A DNA stretch of 36,196 nucleotides from a virus, in the IMG/VR virus record IMGVR_UViG_3300034061_004035, positions 1 through 36,196 of that record. The stretch is one strand, 5' to 3'. This document shows positions 9,985 to 25,386 of this stretch, piece by piece; position 1 is the stretch's first letter; the number at the start of each line of letters is the position of its first letter. Made by a program: the position numbers and the translations under genes. The notes below the pieces were generated by a model that had not been told where the DNA came from, ran no database searches, and was given only the letters and a program-made list of their open reading frames with translations.

Positions 9985-10190
9985 GCTGCCACCTCCGCGA
10001 ACGTCTGACGCACGATACGCCAGTAGGCCTCGGTAGTGTCTACAGTGCGCACTACGCGGATCTTCCTGTGTGTGTGCTTATGGCATGCGGCCTCTTCCAC
10101 CGCATCGGCGCGCGAGTAAAAACCATTGATTACCTCGGGCTCGCCTGTCTCGCGCCAGATCCCGATCACTACGTAGTAGGCCTTTTCCAT
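9981..10190 (-). CDS. Small hypothetical phage protein (69 aa)
   Basis: It begins MEKAYYVVIGIWRETGEPEV. A hydrophobic strand comes first, then a segment with ADAVEEAACHKHTHRK, then strands and a short helix, suggesting a compact alpha/beta fold. The frame is open further upstream into the leader, but ATG at 10190 follows the repeated leader (AGAGAGACAGCAAAC), which also precedes a second gene at 10471; this fixes the start. It is the first gene of a two-gene unit ended by the terminator at 9846. The N-terminal YYVVIGI resembles that of the 87-aa protein at 13088..13351 (YYIVIEI), which also follows such a leader, so the two may be related. Confidence 0.7.
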   Translation of the reverse strand: MEKAYYVVIGIWRETGEPEVINGFYSRADAVEEAACHKHTHRKIRVVRTVDTTEAYWRIVRQTFAEVAA

Positions 10191-10260
10191 GTTTGCTGTC
10201 TCTCTGTATGTGCCCGTCCGGCGGCGGGCAAGGAATGCCGGAAGCCCGAGAATAACACAA
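10191..10260 (-). promoter_or_regulatory. Repeated promoter-leader module, copy A
   Basis: The minus strand runs from the terminator at 10264 through TGTGTTATTCTCGGGCTTCC (candidate -10 TATTCT, weak -35 TTGTGC inside the terminator stem). A GC-rich hairpin GCCCG/CGGGC with an 8-nt loop follows, then ACATACAGAGAGACAGCAAAC directly before ATG. The last ~39 nt (10191..10229) are identical to copy B. Conservation of non-coding DNA before two different genes argues for a shared leader that carries the ribosome site (AGAGAG). Confidence 0.65.
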
Positions 10261-10263
10261 ACG

Positions 10264-10286
10264 AAAAAGCCCGCACAAGGCGGGCT
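10264..10286 (-). terminator. Intrinsic terminator (copy 2 of 4)
   Basis: Same 7-bp stem and 5-nt loop as at 9846, with five T on the minus strand. It lies 5 bp after the stop of the gene at 10292..10471 and just upstream of promoter-leader copy A. Confidence 0.85.
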
Positions 10287-10291
10287 CTTCG

Positions 10292-10471
10292 TTAGTCTGG
10301 CCGGCATACTTGTGGACGCCAATCCCCCTCGCTCAAGTCGCCGTGCGACTCTATATAGAACCTCTCTGCACCGGTGTCAACCGTGCAGAATGTGGTGTTG
10401 ACCACTGGCGAATATGTGGCGTTGACCACACGCCCTTCGTACGAAACGCCTTCAAAGCTAAACTTTACCAT
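10292..10471 (-). CDS. Small hypothetical phage protein (59 aa)
   Basis: It begins MVKFSFEGVSYEGRVVNATY and is dominated by short beta strands with few helices, suggesting a small beta-barrel or sheet. It contains CTVDTGAERFYIESHGDL and ends RPQVCRPD. The start at ATG 10471 is set by the conserved leader; the upstream in-frame extension is leader sequence and not coding. This is a single-gene unit between terminators 10264 and 10545. No family is recognised. Confidence 0.68.
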   Translation of the reverse strand: MVKFSFEGVSYEGRVVNATYSPVVNTTFCTVDTGAERFYIESHGDLSEGDWRPQVCRPD

Positions 10472-10541
10472 GTTTGCTGTCTCTCTGTATGTGCCCGTCC
10501 GGCGGCGGGCGAGTAGTTGCCGGAAGCCCGAGAATAACACA
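10472..10541 (-). promoter_or_regulatory. Repeated promoter-leader module, copy B
   Basis: Almost identical to copy A. It has TGTGTTATTCTCGGGCTTCC, then a hairpin GCCCG/CGGGC, then ACATACAGAGAGACAGCAAAC before ATG at 10471. The only notable divergence from copy A is the ~10 nt just before the hairpin. Two such copies 281 bp apart mark a recent duplication or selection to keep the leader. Confidence 0.65.
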
Positions 10542-10544
10542 AAA

Positions 10545-10568
10545 GAAAAAGCCCGCACAAGGCGGGCT
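10545..10568 (-). terminator. Intrinsic terminator (copy 3 of 4)
   Basis: Same stem as at 9846, with a run of five T then more T-rich DNA on the minus strand. It lies 29 bp past the DUF932-like gene stop and so ends that unit. Confidence 0.85.
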
Positions 10569-10597
10569 CTTCGTCGGGCTGGCGAGGATCTGGCGGG

Positions 10598-11428
10598 CTA
10601 TGCTGCTGCAAGCTTTATTTGTGCCATGCGCTCCGTAAGCTCCCACAGTGATCGGTTGAGTTTCACATTCTCGTTAACTCCGCCGACGGCGCGCGTCGTT
10701 GTGCGGCGACCGGTAGTCGCATGTCCGCGAAGCCCGCCTTGAATCAGGTTTTCCTGCACACGGTTATACACTGTGAACAAATCACTACCGTAATCGGATG
10801 AGCGGCGTGGCCTCAATAATTGGATCGGCGACACTGGTGCCTTATCCTCCCACTTTAACTGGCTGGCGGCCTCCGCCAGTACCAACTGCTCACTTGGTGC
10901 CAGTGTGATTGCCTTGTACTGCTCTTTTCTGGCGTCTAAGGCCTCAAGGTTACTGACTACCTCATAACTACCTTCGATCACACTATCCACCACGTCGCCA
11001 GAGTGCCTGACCTTAACGTCGGTCGATACACTGCCGGCGATCAAACCATTACTGCACACAAAACGAAAATAGCCCGCCAGTAACTGATAACTACTAGTTC
11101 CATCGTGCGAATTCAGGAGAATGATTTCAGGTACCTCCGACAGTGTGCCGATCAGATCACGATGGCGCATGCGCACCATGTGGCGCGTATGCTCACGCTT
11201 GCCCACGTCGCGCGTTTTCGTCTGACGTACCTCATAAGGCTCAAAGCCCTCTTTTCTCAAGCCCTCAATCACCTTGATTGTCGGAATAAACGTATAACGC
11301 TCGCCTCTGCTTTCATGCGCCTGATCGGCGATAACGCTCGGCGCATAATGTGCCATGGCCTCGTTTGATAGCGGGCTATCTGATCTGAATGTGAATTCTT
11401 TTTTTGCGGATGCGTAGCGGTAGTTCAT
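10598..11428 (-). CDS. DUF932-like phage/plasmid protein
   Basis: 276 aa. The order of conserved-looking blocks matches the DUF932 (YfjQ/DUF945-like) family of phages and plasmids: an N-terminal APSVIADQAHESRGERYTFI, a central REHTRHMVRMRH with an acidic loop, EIILLNSHDGTSSYQL, then the signature FRFVCSNGLIAG, and a helical C-terminus with DLFTVYNRVQENLIQGG. The family is widespread on mobile DNA; its biochemical role is not established, though it often lies among DNA-metabolism or host-takeover genes. Start ATG at 11428 follows leader copy C; the longer frame upstream is leader sequence. It is a single-gene unit between terminators at 10545 and 11511. Confidence 0.8.
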   Translation of the reverse strand: MNYRYASAKKEFTFRSDSPLSNEAMAHYAPSVIADQAHESRGERYTFIPTIKVIEGLRKEGFEPYEVRQTKTRDVGKREHTRHMVRMRHRDLIGTLSEVPEIILLNSHDGTSSYQLLAGYFRFVCSNGLIAGSVSTDVKVRHSGDVVDSVIEGSYEVVSNLEALDARKEQYKAITLAPSEQLVLAEAASQLKWEDKAPVSPIQLLRPRRSSDYGSDLFTVYNRVQENLIQGGLRGHATTGRRTTTRAVGGVNENVKLNRSLWELTERMAQIKLAAA

Positions 11429-11500
11429 GGTTAGGCTCTCTCTGTATGGTGCCCTCCGGCGGGCGTATGGTTGCCGGATGCGCGAATAGTAACGCGATTG
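11429..11500 (-). promoter_or_regulatory. Repeated promoter-leader module, copy C
   Basis: A diverged copy: candidate -10 TACTAT, then TCCGGCA, then a shortened hairpin GCCC/GGGC and ACCATACAGAGAGAGCC before ATG. Hairpin loop and stem differ from copies A and B, but the order and the ATACAGAGAGA word are kept, which favours selection on the leader over a recent copy event. Confidence 0.55.
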
Positions 11501-11503
11501 ATT

Positions 11504-11532
11504 AAAAAAGAAAAGCCCGCTTAAGGCGGGCT
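11504..11532 (-). terminator. Intrinsic terminator (copy 4 of 4)
   Basis: AGCCCGC/GCGGGCT stem with a different loop (minus strand CTTAA), followed by a T-rich tail on the minus strand. It is just downstream of the GP88-like gene. Confidence 0.85.
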
Positions 11533-11546
11533 CTTCGTCGGGCGGG

Positions 11547-12155
11547 CTAGTGTCTGATCTTGGTGTGTTCGACAATGACGTCAATCCCGCCATGCGTATA
11601 GCATGCCAGACACGCTGCACATTTTTGGCCTGTGCAGTTCGCGTCGCCGTCGTACTCTTTCGGTACATTGTTAAACACTTTATCAAAGGCCTTTGGTGCC
11701 CTTGTCATGATCCGATCCAGTCTCGGGTTGCTGTAGATCAGGATCATATTAGCCGGCCTCTGGCGCGCCATGCGGACTAACGCCTGTCGCTTTGTCCACA
11801 GGGTAAACGTGGTTTGCGGGTTAGCCTCTGCAATCAAATAAAAATTCTCTAAATGCTGCTTGTTGATCAGTTCGCCGTGACCATGAAAACGAAAATAACG
11901 CGCATTAATAACCGGTATCTGGCGCGCGGTAATTGGTGCCGACAATACTTGGGAATTATGCTCAAAAGCCGGAACACAATTTTTTCGGCTTCCGGATAAC
12001 ATCGCCGCACTATAGCATTTTGCACAAATGCTGTCGGTGGTGCGCATGGCACCACAAAAATCGTTAGAGAGTGTATTAGTATTAATCGCCTGTAAGCCCT
12101 CAAGCTTACCGCTCATGGTACTGATTTTCACCGGCCTGTCGGTCGCTATGATCAT
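11547..12155 (-). CDS. GP88-like cysteine-rich phage protein
   Basis: 202 aa. Near the N-terminus is a Cys cluster CGAMRTTDSICAKCYSAAM (C-x9-C-x2-C), and near the C-terminus CTGQKCAACLACYTHGG (C-x4-C-x2-C-x2-C). Between them are FRFHGHGELINKQHLENF and TFTLWTKR. This arrangement matches the 'gene product 88' family known from actinobacteriophages and other phages. The clusters could hold an Fe-S centre or zinc; a link to radical-SAM-like folds is possible but not shown. The start has AGGAGA 7 nt upstream. The leader holds CATACAGGAGAAAG, reminiscent of the other leaders but without the GC hairpin. Confidence 0.7.
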   Translation of the reverse strand: MIIATDRPVKISTMSGKLEGLQAINTNTLSNDFCGAMRTTDSICAKCYSAAMLSGSRKNCVPAFEHNSQVLSAPITARQIPVINARYFRFHGHGELINKQHLENFYLIAEANPQTTFTLWTKRQALVRMARQRPANMILIYSNPRLDRIMTRAPKAFDKVFNNVPKEYDGDANCTGQKCAACLACYTHGGIDVIVEHTKIRH

Positions 12156-13438: not shown

Positions 13439-13854
13439 CAGGTCAATGCGTATTGCAGTAAATGCCACCGCACGTTATCAGCTGGCCATTGCTGATAAGC
13501 CGGCACGTCTACTCCCCGCTCCATCAGATCCTGCACCTGCTTGCCCTTGTACAGCAGCCACTGCGCCCCATGTATCGTCGGCGCCTTCGGTGGATGGTAT
13601 TGCACGAGGATATACGTCGGCACCTTTATCGCAGCATGCGCGGTATGAAACGCAATCTGGTGCGGGCTGAACTTGATCTTGCGCCCACGCTTAACGACTT
13701 TCAACTCCAGCATGGCAAAACCACAATCCTTTATCGCCAGCAGGCAATCCGGAATGCCAAGCCCGACGCGACTCTCAATCCTCGTCAGTCTCGACTCTGG
13801 TGGCAGGTTCTCCTTCAGTCTCTGGTACAACAATGTCTCCGGTTTCGTCGCCAT
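13435..13854 (-). CDS. VRR-NUC-like nuclease (PD-(D/E)XK fold)
   Basis: 139 aa. It has SRVGLGIPDCLL (Asp36), then FAMLELKVVKRG (Glu50 and Lys52), then FSPHQIAFH (Gln66). Together these form the PD...ELK...Q pattern of VRR-NUC or Holliday-junction-resolvase-like phage nucleases, which cut branched DNA during replication or packaging. I chose ATG at 13854, 10 nt after GAGGAG; the resulting start lies 80 nt inside the small terminase gene. An upstream in-frame ATG is possible but lacks a site. Catalytic metal binding is inferred from the motif only. Confidence 0.8.
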   Translation of the reverse strand: MATKPETLLYQRLKENLPPESRLTRIESRVGLGIPDCLLAIKDCGFAMLELKVVKRGRKIKFSPHQIAFHTAHAAIKVPTYILVQYHPPKAPTIHGAQWLLYKGKQVQDLMERGVDVPAYQQWPADNVRWHLLQYALTC

Positions 13855-14500
13855 AACGCATATTCTCCTCATTGATAGAATGTTCAATGTCTTCCGGCAC
13901 AAGGTCGATGATCTCACTCGGCGTACCATAGACGTCCTTCAACCGCTCCAGCTCCTTCATGACATCTTCAGCAGTCATGCTGTCAATGGCACCATAGCGC
14001 ACCTCTTTGCGCTCAACGTAAATCGTGCCCAGTGCCTGCCCTCGGCGGAACTCGGCCTGCACCGCTGCACCAAAGTTACCTGCCTGCATGGCAGCGTCCC
14101 GAATACGCTGTAGGTCGCGCATATGCCGCTCGTAGGTCGTACCATAGACCTCTGCAATCTCCTGCCTATGCTCCTGTATAGCAGAGACAATGTGCGGGGA
14201 TAGTCTAGGGTTGGTCATCTCCGTTGCTTTGCCCTTCGCCTTCGCAGGGTCATACCCTGCCCGTACTGCGGCCTCCTTCAGAGTTATCTCACCAAAGTTG
14301 TTCACCACCTCGCTTACAAACCTCCACTCCTGCGCGGTCAACGGCATGTTCAGGGGTTTACTTACGGGCGTCATCAGCCTTTCTTTGGTCTTACGCCATG
14401 TTGATACCCGCTTGGTCGCTGGCGCACTCTTCAGCACCTCAGGTATCTGCTTACGCGCCAGTCTTCGTCTTGGCTGCAATAGTTCTTCATCGTCACTCAT
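13775..14500 (-). CDS. terS: Terminase small subunit
   Basis: 241 aa. Residues of about 60-105 have LTAQEWRFVSEVVNNFGEIT and KEAAVRAGYDPAKAKGKATE, then NPRLSPHIVSAIQEH, which is the helix-turn-helix pattern of Terminase_2-like small subunits. A helical oligomerisation region and an acidic C-terminus follow. The small subunit recognises the packaging site and delivers DNA to the large subunit. ATG at 14500 has AGGAGA 5 nt before it and overlaps the upstream stop as ATGA. Its C-terminus overlaps the nuclease gene by 80 nt in another frame. It lies far from terL, which is less common. Confidence 0.78.
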   Translation of the reverse strand: MSDDEELLQPRRRLARKQIPEVLKSAPATKRVSTWRKTKERLMTPVSKPLNMPLTAQEWRFVSEVVNNFGEITLKEAAVRAGYDPAKAKGKATEMTNPRLSPHIVSAIQEHRQEIAEVYGTTYERHMRDLQRIRDAAMQAGNFGAAVQAEFRRGQALGTIYVERKEVRYGAIDSMTAEDVMKELERLKDVYGTPSEIIDLVPEDIEHSINEENMRYGDETGDIVVPETEGEPATRVETDED

Positions 14501-14766
14501 TCTATTCTCCTGCATATGTAAGTATCGTCACTGGCTTTATCCAGTCTTATGGCAAAGTGGCTATCCTGCACACGGTTCCAGTAGGATACCGCCTGCCGAC
14601 ACGCCCTAAGTTCATCCTCATCCGTTAATTCAATGTAGTCGCCCACCTCCATGTCCTTCAACGGAAACCACATGCCTGACTTGGTCGCAGGGGTCTCAAC
14701 CAGAAAATGCATCCGGCAGTTCGGCCAGCAGATCTGGTGGTTCTCTGTATCGTCATAGCTTGGCAC
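14497..14766 (-). CDS. Hypothetical phage protein, tandem paralogue 1 (89 aa)
   Basis: It has the pattern MWFPLKDMEVGDYIELTD, then a helix with Ala-rich centre, then HFAIRLDKASDDTYICRRIE. It resembles the neighbouring protein at 14766 in the order [FY]P...M.V.D, TD, a basic helix, F.[IV]R and D.YICRR. Similar small proteins with MevGDS...FxvR patterns are frequent in phages; their role is unknown, though DNA or RNA binding is plausible. The start is GTG at 14766, with AGGAGG 8 nt upstream, sharing one base with the preceding stop (TAGTG). Confidence 0.72.
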   Translation of the reverse strand: MPSYDDTENHQICWPNCRMHFLVETPATKSGMWFPLKDMEVGDYIELTDEDELRACRQAVSYWNRVQDSHFAIRLDKASDDTYICRRIE

Positions 14767-15050
14767 TACTCAACCCTCCTACAGATATAAACATCCGGTG
14801 CATCTTGCACCGGCCTGACAGAGAACCGGAAAGGCTCTGACAGGGCTCTGCGCTGCCGCTGGACGCGGTACAGGGCATTGTGAACCATCTTCAGTTGCAC
14901 CTTGTCTGTGATTGTAAAAAAATCGGACACCCGCATTTTCCGAAAGGGATACTTCGTCCTCCCCTGAGGACTGGCATGCCACTTAACCAAAAACTCCCGT
15001 GGTCGATGAGTCCAACGGTACTCATCACACCTGTCGTACATTCGCGGCAT
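14766..15050 (-). CDS. Hypothetical phage protein, tandem paralogue 2 (94 aa)
   Basis: It begins MPRMYDRCDEYRWTHRPREF and continues with YPFRKMRVSDFFTITD, a basic helix with QRQRR and FRFSVRPVQDAPDVYICRRVE. The final ~60 residues match the next gene (14497). I chose ATG at 15050, with GGGGG as a modest ribosome site; ATG at 15041 is also possible. The frame is open further into the inverted-repeat element but that part is probably not coding. It is the first gene of the small-terminase operon. Confidence 0.7.
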   Translation of the reverse strand: MPRMYDRCDEYRWTHRPREFLVKWHASPQGRTKYPFRKMRVSDFFTITDKVQLKMVHNALYRVQRQRRALSEPFRFSVRPVQDAPDVYICRRVE

Positions 15051-15403
15051 CAAGAACCCCCGACGTAATGATTCAAGAAAAAATATACCTATACAGGGTT
15101 CTAAGTGCGTTATTGGTAAATTACCAATTATAGATTTTAACGCCGTATCTAGAAACACACTGTATATCCCCTATATACCCCAAATACCCTATTACACCCC
15201 TACACTGCCCTACACTACTCTAAATACAGTAACGTAATAGATAACCTATTGATTACACTATATAAAACACCAATCATTACACCTATTACACCAAAACCCA
15301 CTTGTTATTGGTAATTTACTAACAACGCACTTAGACCCCTTATAGCTTACAGAAGTGTAATCCGTTGTCCGTGAGCCGTGGAACGTGAGCCCTTCCCCGT
15401 GAA
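15051..15403. other. Non-coding AT-rich stretch between operons
   Basis: There is no convincing gene in this ~350-bp stretch. It contains a long inverted repeat, short direct repeats with ATTACACC, and TTCACGG-like words (CGTGAGCC, CGTGGAACGTGAG at about 15370-15386). It separates the small-gene operon from the small-terminase operon and probably ends the former and starts the latter, but I cannot place a standard promoter or terminator with confidence. Confidence 0.6.
15095..15340. repeat. 246-bp element with 36-bp terminal inverted repeats
   Basis: The left arm (15095..15130) and the reverse of the right arm (15340..15305) match at 32 of 36 positions and share TCTAAGTGCGTT and GTAAATTACCAAT. 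CTATA just outside each arm extends the symmetry. Each arm has an internal near-palindrome (ATTGGTAAATTACCAAT on the left). The 174-bp centre is AT-rich, almost free of G on the plus strand, with direct repeats (CCTACACTGCC, CATTACACCTATTACACC). It could be a replication origin, a large operator pair, or a small non-autonomous mobile element. Confidence 0.75.
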
Positions 15404-15565
15404 TCATGCGCCCTTCCCCTTCCTGCTTTGCTTGCGCACAGGTGTCGCGCCCTCCTCCTGCCTGTGTTTTACTTTGTTCCACCCCATGACATAGCTTGGG
15501 CTCTTGTTTTTGAGGATAGCCTTGTCTTGCTTGTCTGGAACTGGGCTAGGCGGCGTGTTCATCAT
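15404..15565 (-). CDS. Small basic hypothetical protein (53 aa)
   Basis: It begins MMNTPPSPVPDKQDKAILKN and ends with a lysine/arginine-rich tail (KQSRKGKGA). The start overlaps the upstream gene by 20 nt, with only a weak GAGAT ribosome site. It is last, or nearly last, in the small-gene operon. Basic charge suggests nucleic-acid contact, but nothing more is visible. Confidence 0.5.
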   Translation of the reverse strand: MMNTPPSPVPDKQDKAILKNKSPSYVMGWNKVKHRQEEGATPVRKQSRKGKGA

Positions 15566-21785: not shown

Positions 21786-21805
21786 CTCTGCATTATTTCG
21801 CAGAG
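21786..21805 (-). terminator. Weak terminator hairpin at end of DNA polymerase gene
   Basis: CTCTGC/GCAGAG stem around an 8-nt loop that includes the polymerase stop. The minus-strand tail TTTCAAAAAC has only three T, so termination would be partial. The polymerase operon may partly read into the small-gene operon. Confidence 0.4.
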
Positions 21806-23658
21806 CCCCAGCTCTTTCCAACCTCAACATCCACCACCGAAGGCACTCCCAGCTCAACCGCCGTGCGCATAATGCGCCCCACTTCCTCGGCCTCTTCCTG
21901 ATTGTTGACGCTGACCACGATCTCATCATGCAACTGCAGCAGGATCGTGAAGCCCGCTTCGTGCAGCTTGACCATCGCCATCTTGGTCTGGTCGGCAGCA
22001 GAGCCTTGGATCAAGCGGTTTAAACCCTTGTACGTCATCGCCCGTTTAATACGCGGGCCGTACTCGATCACTGCCTGCTCATACGGCAGCGCTTTGTTCA
22101 CGCCCCACGCCACCGGTTCAAACAGTGGGAAGCGGCATTTGCGCCCGAGCAGTGTGCGGATGGCGCCACCGGAGGAAGGGCTCTCTATCCGGCGCATCAC
22201 TGCGTCCACTGTGCTACGCAGAAATGGCACGTTCTCATGAAACAGGGAGATCAGTGCGTCGGCCTCCTCAGAGCCCATGTCCAGCGACACCGCCAGCTTC
22301 TTCTTGCCCATGCCGTACATCAGCCCTAAGCCGATGGTCTTGGCCGCCTTACGCTTGATCCCTGCCATGTCCGCAACCATCTGGTGGAAGTCGGTTCGCG
22401 GGTCTTTAATGTACGCATCCTGCATCTTCTCACTGCCCGGCAAGTTCAACAGCGCCGCGTAATGAATCAGTAGCCGTGGTTCTTGGCTCGAGAAGTCACA
22501 GCTTGCCCACAGCTGACCCTCTTCCGGCAGGAAGAGGTTGCGCACCAAGGGTCCGATGATTTCGTGCCGTGCAGGCACTTGCTGCAGGTTTGGGTTGGCC
22601 ATACTCAGCCTGCCGGTAACCGTGCCGCCGTCATCCGAGCGCAGTTGGTTGATGTGCGGGTGTATCCTGCCGTCCCCTGCGGACAGGTCAATGTAGGGCT
22701 GCAGGAAGGTGCCGTAGGTCTTGTTCAGCTCCCGCGCCTCGATGATGTCCTTGGCAATGGGGTGCTCACAGCTTTCCAGAAAGGTCTTGGTAAAGCTCGG
22801 AGCGCCGGCCTCTGTCTTCGGGTAGGCAATCCCGAGGTTATCAAAGCCGCGCGCAATACTGGCCGCTGCCCAAATGTCCACGGGGGTCTTTGCAGCGTCG
22901 CGGATCTTTTTCAGAAGCTCCTTCTCTCGCTTGTTCATATCATTGCGAAGGTCAACGGCCTTGCTGCGATCAAAGCGTACCCCACGCAAGGTAATGTCCA
23001 CCAACACCGGCAGCAGCCTTGTCTCCAGATCAAAGATAGACTCCACCTCCTCACGTCGCAGCAGACCTTTAAAGCACTGCCACAGCTTCAGCGTAAGCTC
23101 TGCGTCGCCCTCGGCATACTCTCCGACGAACATCGCCGGCAGTTTCCACAGCTCCTTCTTCGGATGCAACCCAAAGTCGCGCGCGGCGTCCTTCAAGCCC
23201 TGCTCACTCTTGACCTGCTTCAGGTAATCAAACCCCAGTGCGTTGAGACTGAAGGACATACGGTTCTCATCCAGACACGCAGCGGCGAGCATGGTGTCGT
23301 AGATAGTCCCGTTGACCGTGAACCCCGAAGCGCGCAGCCATCCCAAGTCATAGGCACCGTTGTGCATGACCTTGGGCGCAGGTAGCGCCAGCACCTTCTG
23401 TATCCACCTTTCCACCACCGCCTTGTCCAAGTTGCCACCGCCCTCATGCGCCACGGGGTAGTAGCCTTCCCAGCCCTCCACCGCCACGGCGTAGCCGACA
23501 ATGTAACCGTCCTTGGTAGGCCATCCCGGACCTTTTGTTTCCATGTTCTCGTCACGGGTTTCAAGGTCGATGGCGATTTCCGTTGCTGTGGACAGGTTAG
23601 GAAACGAGTCGGGGGGTATCCACTCGGAGGTGGGCGTAAAGAGTGGGGACTGCCTCAT
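21793..23658 (-). CDS. polA: DNA polymerase, family A with 3'-5' exonuclease domain
   Basis: 621 aa. Exonuclease motifs are IAIDLET (Asp31, Glu33), HNGAYDLGWL (Asp104) and YAEGDAELT (Asp185). Polymerase motif A is CDFSSQEPR (388-395), motif B is R436-x3-K440-TIGLGLMYG, and motif C is LLQLHDEI (577-579). No 5' nuclease domain is present, like T7 polymerase in size. Alignment with E. coli Pol I puts Leu444 at position 762, where Phe or Tyr are alternatives. This enzyme copies the phage genome. ATG at 23658 has GGAG upstream and overlaps the helicase stop as ATGA. Confidence 0.95.
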   Translation of the reverse strand: MRQSPLFTPTSEWIPPDSFPNLSTATEIAIDLETRDENMETKGPGWPTKDGYIVGYAVAVEGWEGYYPVAHEGGGNLDKAVVERWIQKVLALPAPKVMHNGAYDLGWLRASGFTVNGTIYDTMLAAACLDENRMSFSLNALGFDYLKQVKSEQGLKDAARDFGLHPKKELWKLPAMFVGEYAEGDAELTLKLWQCFKGLLRREEVESIFDLETRLLPVLVDITLRGVRFDRSKAVDLRNDMNKREKELLKKIRDAAKTPVDIWAAASIARGFDNLGIAYPKTEAGAPSFTKTFLESCEHPIAKDIIEARELNKTYGTFLQPYIDLSAGDGRIHPHINQLRSDDGGTVTGRLSMANPNLQQVPARHEIIGPLVRNLFLPEEGQLWASCDFSSQEPRLLIHYAALLNLPGSEKMQDAYIKDPRTDFHQMVADMAGIKRKAAKTIGLGLMYGMGKKKLAVSLDMGSEEADALISLFHENVPFLRSTVDAVMRRIESPSSGGAIRTLLGRKCRFPLFEPVAWGVNKALPYEQAVIEYGPRIKRAMTYKGLNRLIQGSAADQTKMAMVKLHEAGFTILLQLHDEIVVSVNNQEEAEEVGRIMRTAVELGVPSVVDVEVGKSWGSAK

Positions 23659-25160
23659 AGGCGAAAGCTCCGAAGTATGTTCTGCGGACGGACGATGTGA
23701 AGCCCTTGTCGGGCACGGGTGATACCCACGTACAGGATGCGGTTTATGTTGTCCGGGTTGTACGCGTACTCATCTGCGAACTTACTGGACAGGTCTGTCA
23801 GCAGTAGGACGTTATCGGCCTCACCGCCCTTGGCACCGTGGATCGTGGACAGTCGAATGGGGGGCTTTTGTCCGATGCGGATGCCCCTGCGCAGCATGGC
23901 GATGATGTATTCGCGCTTGTCTGCCCCGACTTTAACGAGCGCCCTGTGCCAGATGTCATCTGTCAGCAGCCCATACTGCTGCTTCAGGGTATCCATGTTG
24001 TACATCCCGTCCTCCGGCATCACGGACAGGTGCTTGGTGGCTTTGTTGACGTTGTGCCCGAGGTACTTGTACAAGTTATGCACCTGATCATAGGAGATGA
24101 TGCCATCACGTCGCAGGCTCTCCCACGATGTCACGGCCTGCAAGATACTGTCGGTCACGGACCGCGTCCCGTAGCGCTCGAACAACAGGCCTTGTGAGAC
24201 GAGCCACGCGTGTACGCCGTTGAGCATGTAGTTGGCCGCTGCCAGCACCAGCCACTCGCCCTTGGACAGATCCACATGCTCGTAGCTGATGTAGAACTGC
24301 ACCTCGCCCTGCTCCTGCCGTGGGTTCCACGTCTTCGGCTGGCGGTGCTTTATCCGGTTAACAATCTCGTTGGCCAACGCGTGGATCTTGGCAGGTACGC
24401 GGTAGGATTGATCGAGGACAATGACCTCGCCGCCGTGGTTCAGGAAAGCGTCCACGTCAGCGCCTGCCCAAGCGTACAAGGCTTGGTCGTCATCCCCTGC
24501 TATGAAAAGACGGGAGGACCGTTTAGCGAGTTCCGCCACGATGCGCCACTGTAACCGGGACAGGTCTTGTGCCTCGTCGATGATAAGCACGTCCAACGAT
24601 GGCAGTCTGTCGGGCTGCTCCAAAAGCCGATCCAGCAGGTCGGTGAAGTCCATCAGCCCATTGCGCTGTTTATATTCCCTGTATGCGCGCTCCACGTACT
24701 CAAAGTGATACCACTCAATGGCGATCTTACTGTTGTTGTAGTGCGTGTGCAGGTCTTGTCCGCGTATGCGGGCGATGTTGATCTGATTAAGGATGGGGTT
24801 GTCGGCGTTGACGGTGAAGTCCTCGCCCTCGCTGACCTTAATATCCAGCCCGGTCTCTTTAGAGAACTCCCGAAAGTTGCTGGTCTGCATCATGTCCTTT
24901 CGGGTGACGGCGAGGCAGTGGTAAGCAAGGCTGTGCAGAGTCTTAAACCACGGGAAGTCGTGAAGCCCGTTGAGGTCGGGGAACTTTTCAATGGCGCGGT
25001 CACGGGCCTCGGTCGCCGCCTTACGGGTGAAGGCAAAGTAACCGATCTGTGTGGGGTGGGTACCGCTTTGCAGTTCGATGTCCACCACGTTCAGCAAAAA
25101 GGTGGTCTTGCCGCTGCCGGGGGGCCCGAATACTTTAGTCTTCTGTGAGGGTAGCGACAT
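23655..25160 (-). CDS. UvrD/Rep-like superfamily 1 helicase
   Basis: 501 aa. It has motif I GPPGSGKT (12-19), Ia AFTRKAA (43-49), II IIDEAQDL (DEAQ at 195-198), III GDDDQALYAWAGAD, V STIHGAKGGEADNV and VI YVGITRARQGL. These give ATP binding and hydrolysis and 3'-5' unwinding of DNA. It is between the primase module and polymerase and so likely opens the fork or acts in repair. Shorter than E. coli UvrD (720 aa), so 1B/2B subdomains are small. I chose ATG at 25160 with AAGGAG 9 nt upstream; the frame extends into the previous gene, which is not used. Confidence 0.9.
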   Translation of the reverse strand: MSLPSQKTKVFGPPGSGKTTFLLNVVDIELQSGTHPTQIGYFAFTRKAATEARDRAIEKFPDLNGLHDFPWFKTLHSLAYHCLAVTRKDMMQTSNFREFSKETGLDIKVSEGEDFTVNADNPILNQINIARIRGQDLHTHYNNSKIAIEWYHFEYVERAYREYKQRNGLMDFTDLLDRLLEQPDRLPSLDVLIIDEAQDLSRLQWRIVAELAKRSSRLFIAGDDDQALYAWAGADVDAFLNHGGEVIVLDQSYRVPAKIHALANEIVNRIKHRQPKTWNPRQEQGEVQFYISYEHVDLSKGEWLVLAAANYMLNGVHAWLVSQGLLFERYGTRSVTDSILQAVTSWESLRRDGIISYDQVHNLYKYLGHNVNKATKHLSVMPEDGMYNMDTLKQQYGLLTDDIWHRALVKVGADKREYIIAMLRRGIRIGQKPPIRLSTIHGAKGGEADNVLLLTDLSSKFADEYAYNPDNINRILYVGITRARQGLHIVRPQNILRSFRL

Positions 25161-25386
25161 ATGCCAGCACTCCTTCCGGATCGCCTGACCATACAATGAC
25201 GGGGGTGTACTCACCTGCGTACAGTCCGATTATGTTGTACTCCATAAACTCCAAAGCTTCTTCTGCGGGCCAGTCGTTTTGCTCAGATAGCATCTGCAGT
25301 ATGCGATTGCCGTTATAAACAATCCTATCGTCCTTCGCAGTCATTCCGATAATGGCCTCATCAAACCCATCAAATTTTATAGTCAT
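25135..25386 (-). CDS. Conserved small phage protein (83 aa)
   Basis: It begins MTIKFDGFDEAIIGMTAKDD, then RIVYNGNRILQMLSEQNDW and EALEFMEYNIIGLYAGEYTP with IVWSGD. This layout (a regulatory-type strand, EA helix, MEYNI and PVIV strand) recurs in tailed phages between replication genes; function unknown. ATG at 25386 overlaps the primase stop as TGATG. Overlaps the helicase gene by 26 nt. Confidence 0.75.
   Translation of the reverse strand: MTIKFDGFDEAIIGMTAKDDRIVYNGNRILQMLSEQNDWPAEEALEFMEYNIIGLYAGEYTPVIVWSGDPEGVLAYVATLTED

Follow-up and report, generated by a model that had tools for sequence, protein, structure and literature searches.

Comparative evidence favours a replication origin as the function of a 246-bp intergenic element (positions 15095 to 15340) in a bacterial virus, a podophage, whose 36,196-nt virus record was analyzed at its full length and is referred to here as the window. 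This is a computed prediction: the element is probably the origin of a PrimPol replicon, and it probably works like an iteron/stem-loop origin. The prediction draws on the retention of the element at one locus in relatives, with NYGTAAT repeats enriched only there; on the same layout directly upstream of PrimPol in phages that share the replication module; on phage CRP-902, which has homologous packaging genes, unrelated replication genes and no element upstream of the terminase small subunit gene (terS); and on arms that pair better than mispaired controls. It is also consistent with the modeled architecture of the PrimPol (AEP domain, helix bundle and C-terminal winged helix) and, by analogy, with the precedents pRN1 and RSF1010. 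Coordinates of the features are collected in Table 1.

Table 1. Features of the element and of the surrounding genes in the window.
Feature	Position	Strand	Remarks
Left arm	15095–15130		Plus-strand coordinates; carries palindrome ATTGGTAAATTACCAAT
Right arm	15305–15340		Inverted copy of left arm, 32/36 positions
Iteron GTGTAAT, direct 1	15285–15291	−	
Iteron GTGTAAT, direct 2	15276–15282	−	9 bp from direct 1
Iteron GTGTAAT, direct 3	15252–15258	−	24 bp from direct 2; 8–9 bp in most relatives
IHF consensus WATCAANNNNTTR (AATCAATAGGTTA), exact	15242–15254	−	Sequence match
Inverted iteron, ACGTAAT on plus strand	15232–15238	+	
Distal direct iteron GTGTAAT	15191–15197	−	
Small gene adjoining element, YPFxxMxVGDSF...RxWR family	14766–15050	−	
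Second member of the YPFxxMxVGDSF...RxWR small-protein family	14497–14766	−	
Terminase small subunit (terS)	13775–14515	−	Downstream of element
PrimPol: AEP-TOTE domain, PriCT_1 helix bundle, predicted C-terminal winged helix	25386–26915	−	
Family A DNA polymerase and UvrD-like helicase	21793–25214	−	Replication module

The inverted repeat is real and beyond chance. Arm-to-arm alignment bore out the two 36-nt arms in opposite orientation, with 32 matching positions, that had been described in a first-pass annotation of this DNA, and a repeat finder returned the same inverted repeat as 34 nt at 91%. With spans of up to 1 kb considered, no other inverted repeat in the whole window scores as high (25; runner-up, 14), and the maximum score reached in 40 dinucleotide shuffles, used as a chance control, was 15. 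Three further features from that annotation were confirmed: the near-palindrome within each arm (ATTGGTAAATTACCAAT, 8+1+8, on the left and a copy with one broken pair on the right), the G-poor centre (11 G in 178 bases of the plus strand) and the short direct repeats of the centre, which are GTGTAAT units. Folded as single-stranded DNA, the element forms a terminal stem of 4+15+13 pairs at −32 kcal/mol (z = −6.4). No matches were obtained when the exact pattern of the arms was searched in IMG/VR or when the element region was compared with phage records by blastn. Degenerate CACGGACC-type repeats lie just beyond the terS-distal arm (15362 to 15417), and in relatives they are found on the same side.

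The closest annotated relative of the window phage is DSL-LC04 (61.5 kb, circular), with which gene order is shared; pelagiphages HTVC023P, HTVC027P and 023Pt_psg01 (psg01) are more distant. The element had been taken to mark a boundary between two operons. It does separate two gene blocks, but all genes flanking it are on the minus strand, and the blocks are therefore co-directional. In the minus-strand reading, two small paralogues come after the element, and terS comes next. In most relatives, too, the gene after the element belongs to this small-protein family, and one homologue of the protein gave a weak DUF7303 match. The small neighbour protein was modeled (pLDDT 84) as strand-helix-strand-strand, and a PDB fold search with this model gave no match at E < 0.3. 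The UvrD-like helicase of the replication module (23655 to 25214) was called by synteny with an annotated DSL-LC04 gene.

Relatives were collected as 80 contigs encoding a related polymerase, 22 of which hold terS. A cluster of at least two NYGTAAT repeats was found ∼0.4 to 1 kb upstream of terS in every one of these 22. Over the set, repeat density is 3.6 per 500 bp at this locus versus ∼0.2 elsewhere, an enrichment of ∼20-fold that is seen only there. The typical core, with YGTAAT as the unit, has three direct repeats 8 to 9 bp apart, a ∼50-bp gap, often with the IHF consensus AAATCAATNGGTTA, one inverted repeat and one direct repeat. It continues with a GC-rich box (GCGCGCGCGG or GGGATGTCCC, present beside the core in most relatives) and then with A/T tracts adjoining the arms. 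A pattern scan yielded 106 stretches, 37 of them non-redundant; the IHF consensus is exact in 20 of the 37 versus 0.6 expected from base shuffles, a comparison in which the relatives are not independent. The core profile matches once per contig, with one exception in which a second match lies at the contig start. CACGG occurs on the terS-distal side in 19/37 relatives and in an equal stretch on the opposite side in 5/37.

Tandem direct iterons are specific to the locus across the group. In the window, two are in tandem and the third is 24 bp off, and two degenerate GTGTAG units lie within 15200 to 15215, beside the distal direct iteron. The window's member thus departs from the typical core by its displaced third iteron, and also by its missing GC box and long A/T tracts. 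Its repeats are more degenerate, and the core profile misses it. Other members vary as well. The DSL-LC04 stretch upstream of terS has one strict copy of the motif, its layout and 20-bp arms being seen by eye. An element lies within ∼1 kb of terS in HTVC023P, HTVC027P and psg01; the iterons of HTVC027P run opposite to the orientation read from the GC box, and the psg01 repeat word, TGGCACA, is outside GNAAY, which fits most repeats across groups.

Pairing of the arms was compared across phages. For 15 elements chosen for clear arms, mean identity between the arms is 0.96 within an element and 0.42 between elements, compared with 0.34 for shuffled sequences. After masking of poly-A/T in 45 elements, the true arm pairs matched better than mispaired controls assembled from unlike phages (p = 6e-10). 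Individually, 20 of the 45 are clear, lying above the 95th percentile of the mispaired control; in about half of the relatives, masking of the A/T tracts leaves arms that pair no better than the controls. The arms of HTVC023P and psg01 are short (9 to 10 bp) and were judged by eye, and no arms were firmly identified in HTVC027P. These alignments suggest that a good part of the group has retained pairing between arms whose sequence is otherwise free to change. In a transposon family the ends should be conserved, and the pattern therefore argues against one. Pieces of arm words (GGATACT, GGTACTT, GAACTTCT) recur slightly above expectation in three related contigs. Many arms hold CTATAGG, and a T7-type promoter was considered. 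This reading was dropped: the words of the arms do not recur throughout the genomes, and a gene for a phage RNA polymerase was not noticed; the related CRP-901/902 are without one.

When PrimPol was used in a tblastn search, siphophages were found at ∼30% identity that carry PrimPol, an SF2 helicase, a UvrD helicase and PolA, with their terminase genes far from PrimPol. Five of them (Kokobel2, PMBT28, VLCpiS6a, DMU1 and Barton; hosts Providencia, Salmonella, Klebsiella and Acinetobacter) have an element directly upstream of PrimPol (copy A), with direct repeats 8 to 9 bp apart, ∼40 to 50 bp, an inverted repeat, ∼20 to 30 bp and a direct repeat. The repeat word is TGGAACG in PMBT28 and VLCpiS6a, TGGAACC in Kokobel2 and GCAACCG in DMU1; Barton has a sparser version with GGTAAC, one copy per position. 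In a triple-iteron search, the site upstream of PrimPol ranked first or second in four of five genomes or stretches examined; the same search gave no match in the more distant PrimPol phages ct3Et533, R5C and Pan1. Each siphophage has a second copy (copy B) elsewhere, which in DMU1 and Barton is near the start of the packaging genes. The Kokobel2 arms (18 bp, perfect) and those of Barton copy B (scoring 17/20) are the top inverted repeats of their genomes. PMBT28 and SH-Ab 15497 have been discussed among 2-aminoadenine (Z-cluster) phages (PMC8342488).

Roseobacter phage CRP-902 has packaging and capsid genes in common with HTVC023P and replication genes that are not (PMC10149686). The 547 bp upstream of its terS are without the element, and no intergenic repeat cluster of this kind was seen elsewhere in CRP-902. 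Co-segregation of the element with the replication module was thus found in a small sample, with five phages having it beside PrimPol and CRP-902 lacking it. In Synechococcus phage MinM2, nine GTCATAC repeats (10043 to 10389) separate a small gene from the terL operon, and only four other GTCATAC were seen in that genome.

The window PrimPol was modeled with a mean pLDDT of 72 from an alignment shallow in diversity. Its AEP domain matches CAPP PrimPol at Z 16.5, and in the structure model its helix bundle resembles PriX. A C-terminal winged helix is predicted at residues 399 to 492 (Z 7.8); among the structures it matches are oriT-bound TcpK and the SCCmec Cch C-terminus, at Z 7 to 8, a range in which unrelated folds can also score. 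Cch2 is described in the literature as binding iterons in a proposed origin, and P4 alpha and pRN1 ORF904 also carry a winged-helix domain (PMC4234260). From the model we infer that PrimPol may be the reader of the iterons.

If the element is an origin, which was one of three options raised in the first-pass annotation, the PrimPol winged helix, or another protein of the replication module, would bind the GNAAY-type iterons, IHF would bend the DNA between them, and AT-rich DNA near the arms would open. The paired arms could then fold, either as one long stem or as opposed hairpins, one per separated strand, so that the primase would have a defined start on both strands, from which the phage helicases and PolA would extend. 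It is possible, though we put it forward tentatively, that this is an undescribed class of origin with GNAAY iterons in a fixed pattern and a loop closed by arms that are obliged to pair and free in sequence, for which PrimPol serves as both initiator and primase. Such a class would be common to podophages of the HTVC023P and DSL-LC04 types and to PrimPol/PolA siphophages, including some 2-aminoadenine (Z) phages. No paper turned up in a literature search for origins of PrimPol phages that combine iterons with inverted repeats. With a compact candidate and a predicted reader protein, origin mapping in cultured HTVC027P becomes a direct experiment, and the same kind of candidate is available for PrimPol siphophages, Z-genome phages included. 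An origin of this kind would connect replication by phage PrimPols with the stem-loop origins found in archaeal plasmids.

Known systems resemble the element in part. The pRN1-family plasmid of Sulfolobus, with the AEP primase-polymerase ORF904, and a proposed BIP-1/BPP-1 phage origin have been described (PMC4234260). pRN1 has a like protein (AEP PrimPol, helix bundle and winged helix) and paired arms kept in structure and not in sequence, as was found here, clearly in about half of the relatives. However, the pRN1 stem-loop is iteron-free, measures ∼100 nt and is found 3' of rep, whereas elements of the window type have a loop of 170 to 180 bp with iterons and an IHF site; the pRN1 protein also has an SF3 helicase, and none was seen in the window PrimPol. 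RSF1010 oriV with ssiA/ssiB uses RepC iterons and the AEP primase RepB' (PMC4234260, PMC4434180). It is like the element, as read here, in that iterons go together with hairpins from which primase starts on either strand, and in having an AEP primase and a separate helicase protein, but ssi are fixed 40-nt sequences, whereas the arms of the element are mutually paired and variable, and RepC/RepA homologues were not identified in the window phage. Phage P4 has two sites per genome, ori plus crr, as the siphophages here have two. Its winged-helix primase-initiator binds origin repeats (PMC4234260), but the alpha primase is of the TOPRIM type, and the repeat word and layout are unlike those of the element.

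Several observations count against an origin. No clear GC or AT skew shift was seen at the site, whether in the window, in DSL-LC04 or in the siphophages; the window PrimPol is 10 kb away, while all relatives holding terS have it close to the element; siphophages have a second copy; and arms are clear and the IHF consensus exact in only about half. The proximity to terS fits a packaging initiation site of the cosB/pac type, in which TerS would bind the iterons, IHF would bend the DNA and terminase would cut nearby. This idea was first suggested by the presence of repeats and an IHF site near terS. Lambda cosB has R sites and an IHF site upstream of terS, and the element resembles it in that an IHF site close to terS is flanked by repeats. 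The part of IHF in cosB has been described (PMC9611059). The GC-rich box beside the core and the number of contig ends within 600 bp of the element (19 versus 10 expected) would also suit packaging. However, these are ends of contigs and not of virion DNA, they are at no fixed position and mark no genome end, and with only this mild enrichment they do not make a clear cos signal. Lambda cosB is also without paired arms of 15 to 38 nt, and the element goes with the replication module and not with terminase: CRP-902 showed none beside terS, and terS is its constant neighbour in the window's own group but not overall, since siphophage copy A is beside PrimPol and far from the terminase genes. We therefore consider a packaging site rather unlikely.

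The copy B sites near the packaging genes of DMU1 and Barton keep both packaging and regulation alive. Control of transcription would have a phage regulator bind iterons and arms and, with IHF, loop the DNA to control the downstream operon, whose gene block begins directly after the right arm in the minus-strand reading. The first-pass annotation had offered a paired operator that loops, and two observations would suit it: the repeats have an IHF-like bend site between them, and PMBT28 and VLCpiS6a have a TTGACA/TATAAT promoter after copy B, which would make copies A and B precede two operons. Near the window element itself there is no consensus promoter, and a search of positions 14950 to 15500 found neither a sigma-70 promoter nor a terminator. 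An operator would not need near-perfectly paired arms as long as 38 nt, and no regulator gene was seen in consistent linkage, leaving this reading improbable. Paired arms of free sequence and the low z score of the single-strand fold are what a structured non-coding RNA with a long terminal stem would show, but the conserved core consists of repeats of the DNA-binding type and an IHF consensus, no promoter precedes the window element, and no Rfam match was found for the window region and four relatives; such an RNA is very improbable. The small mobile element of the earlier description is contradicted. Terminal inverted repeats around a short non-coding centre do recall a MITE-like, transposon-derived element, but family-conserved ends in several copies at different sites were not found; conservation lies in the core and variation in the arms, opposite to what a transposon family shows, and there is one copy per contig, at the same locus and with a constant internal layout. 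This origin for the element is scarcely credible.

A 50- to 66-nt leader, composed of a terminator-like stem and a start region, is present in three copies in the window (10182 to 10301, 10463 to 10583 and 11420 to 11547), each preceding small genes between terL and terS. Several genes of the window thus seem to carry one common leader.
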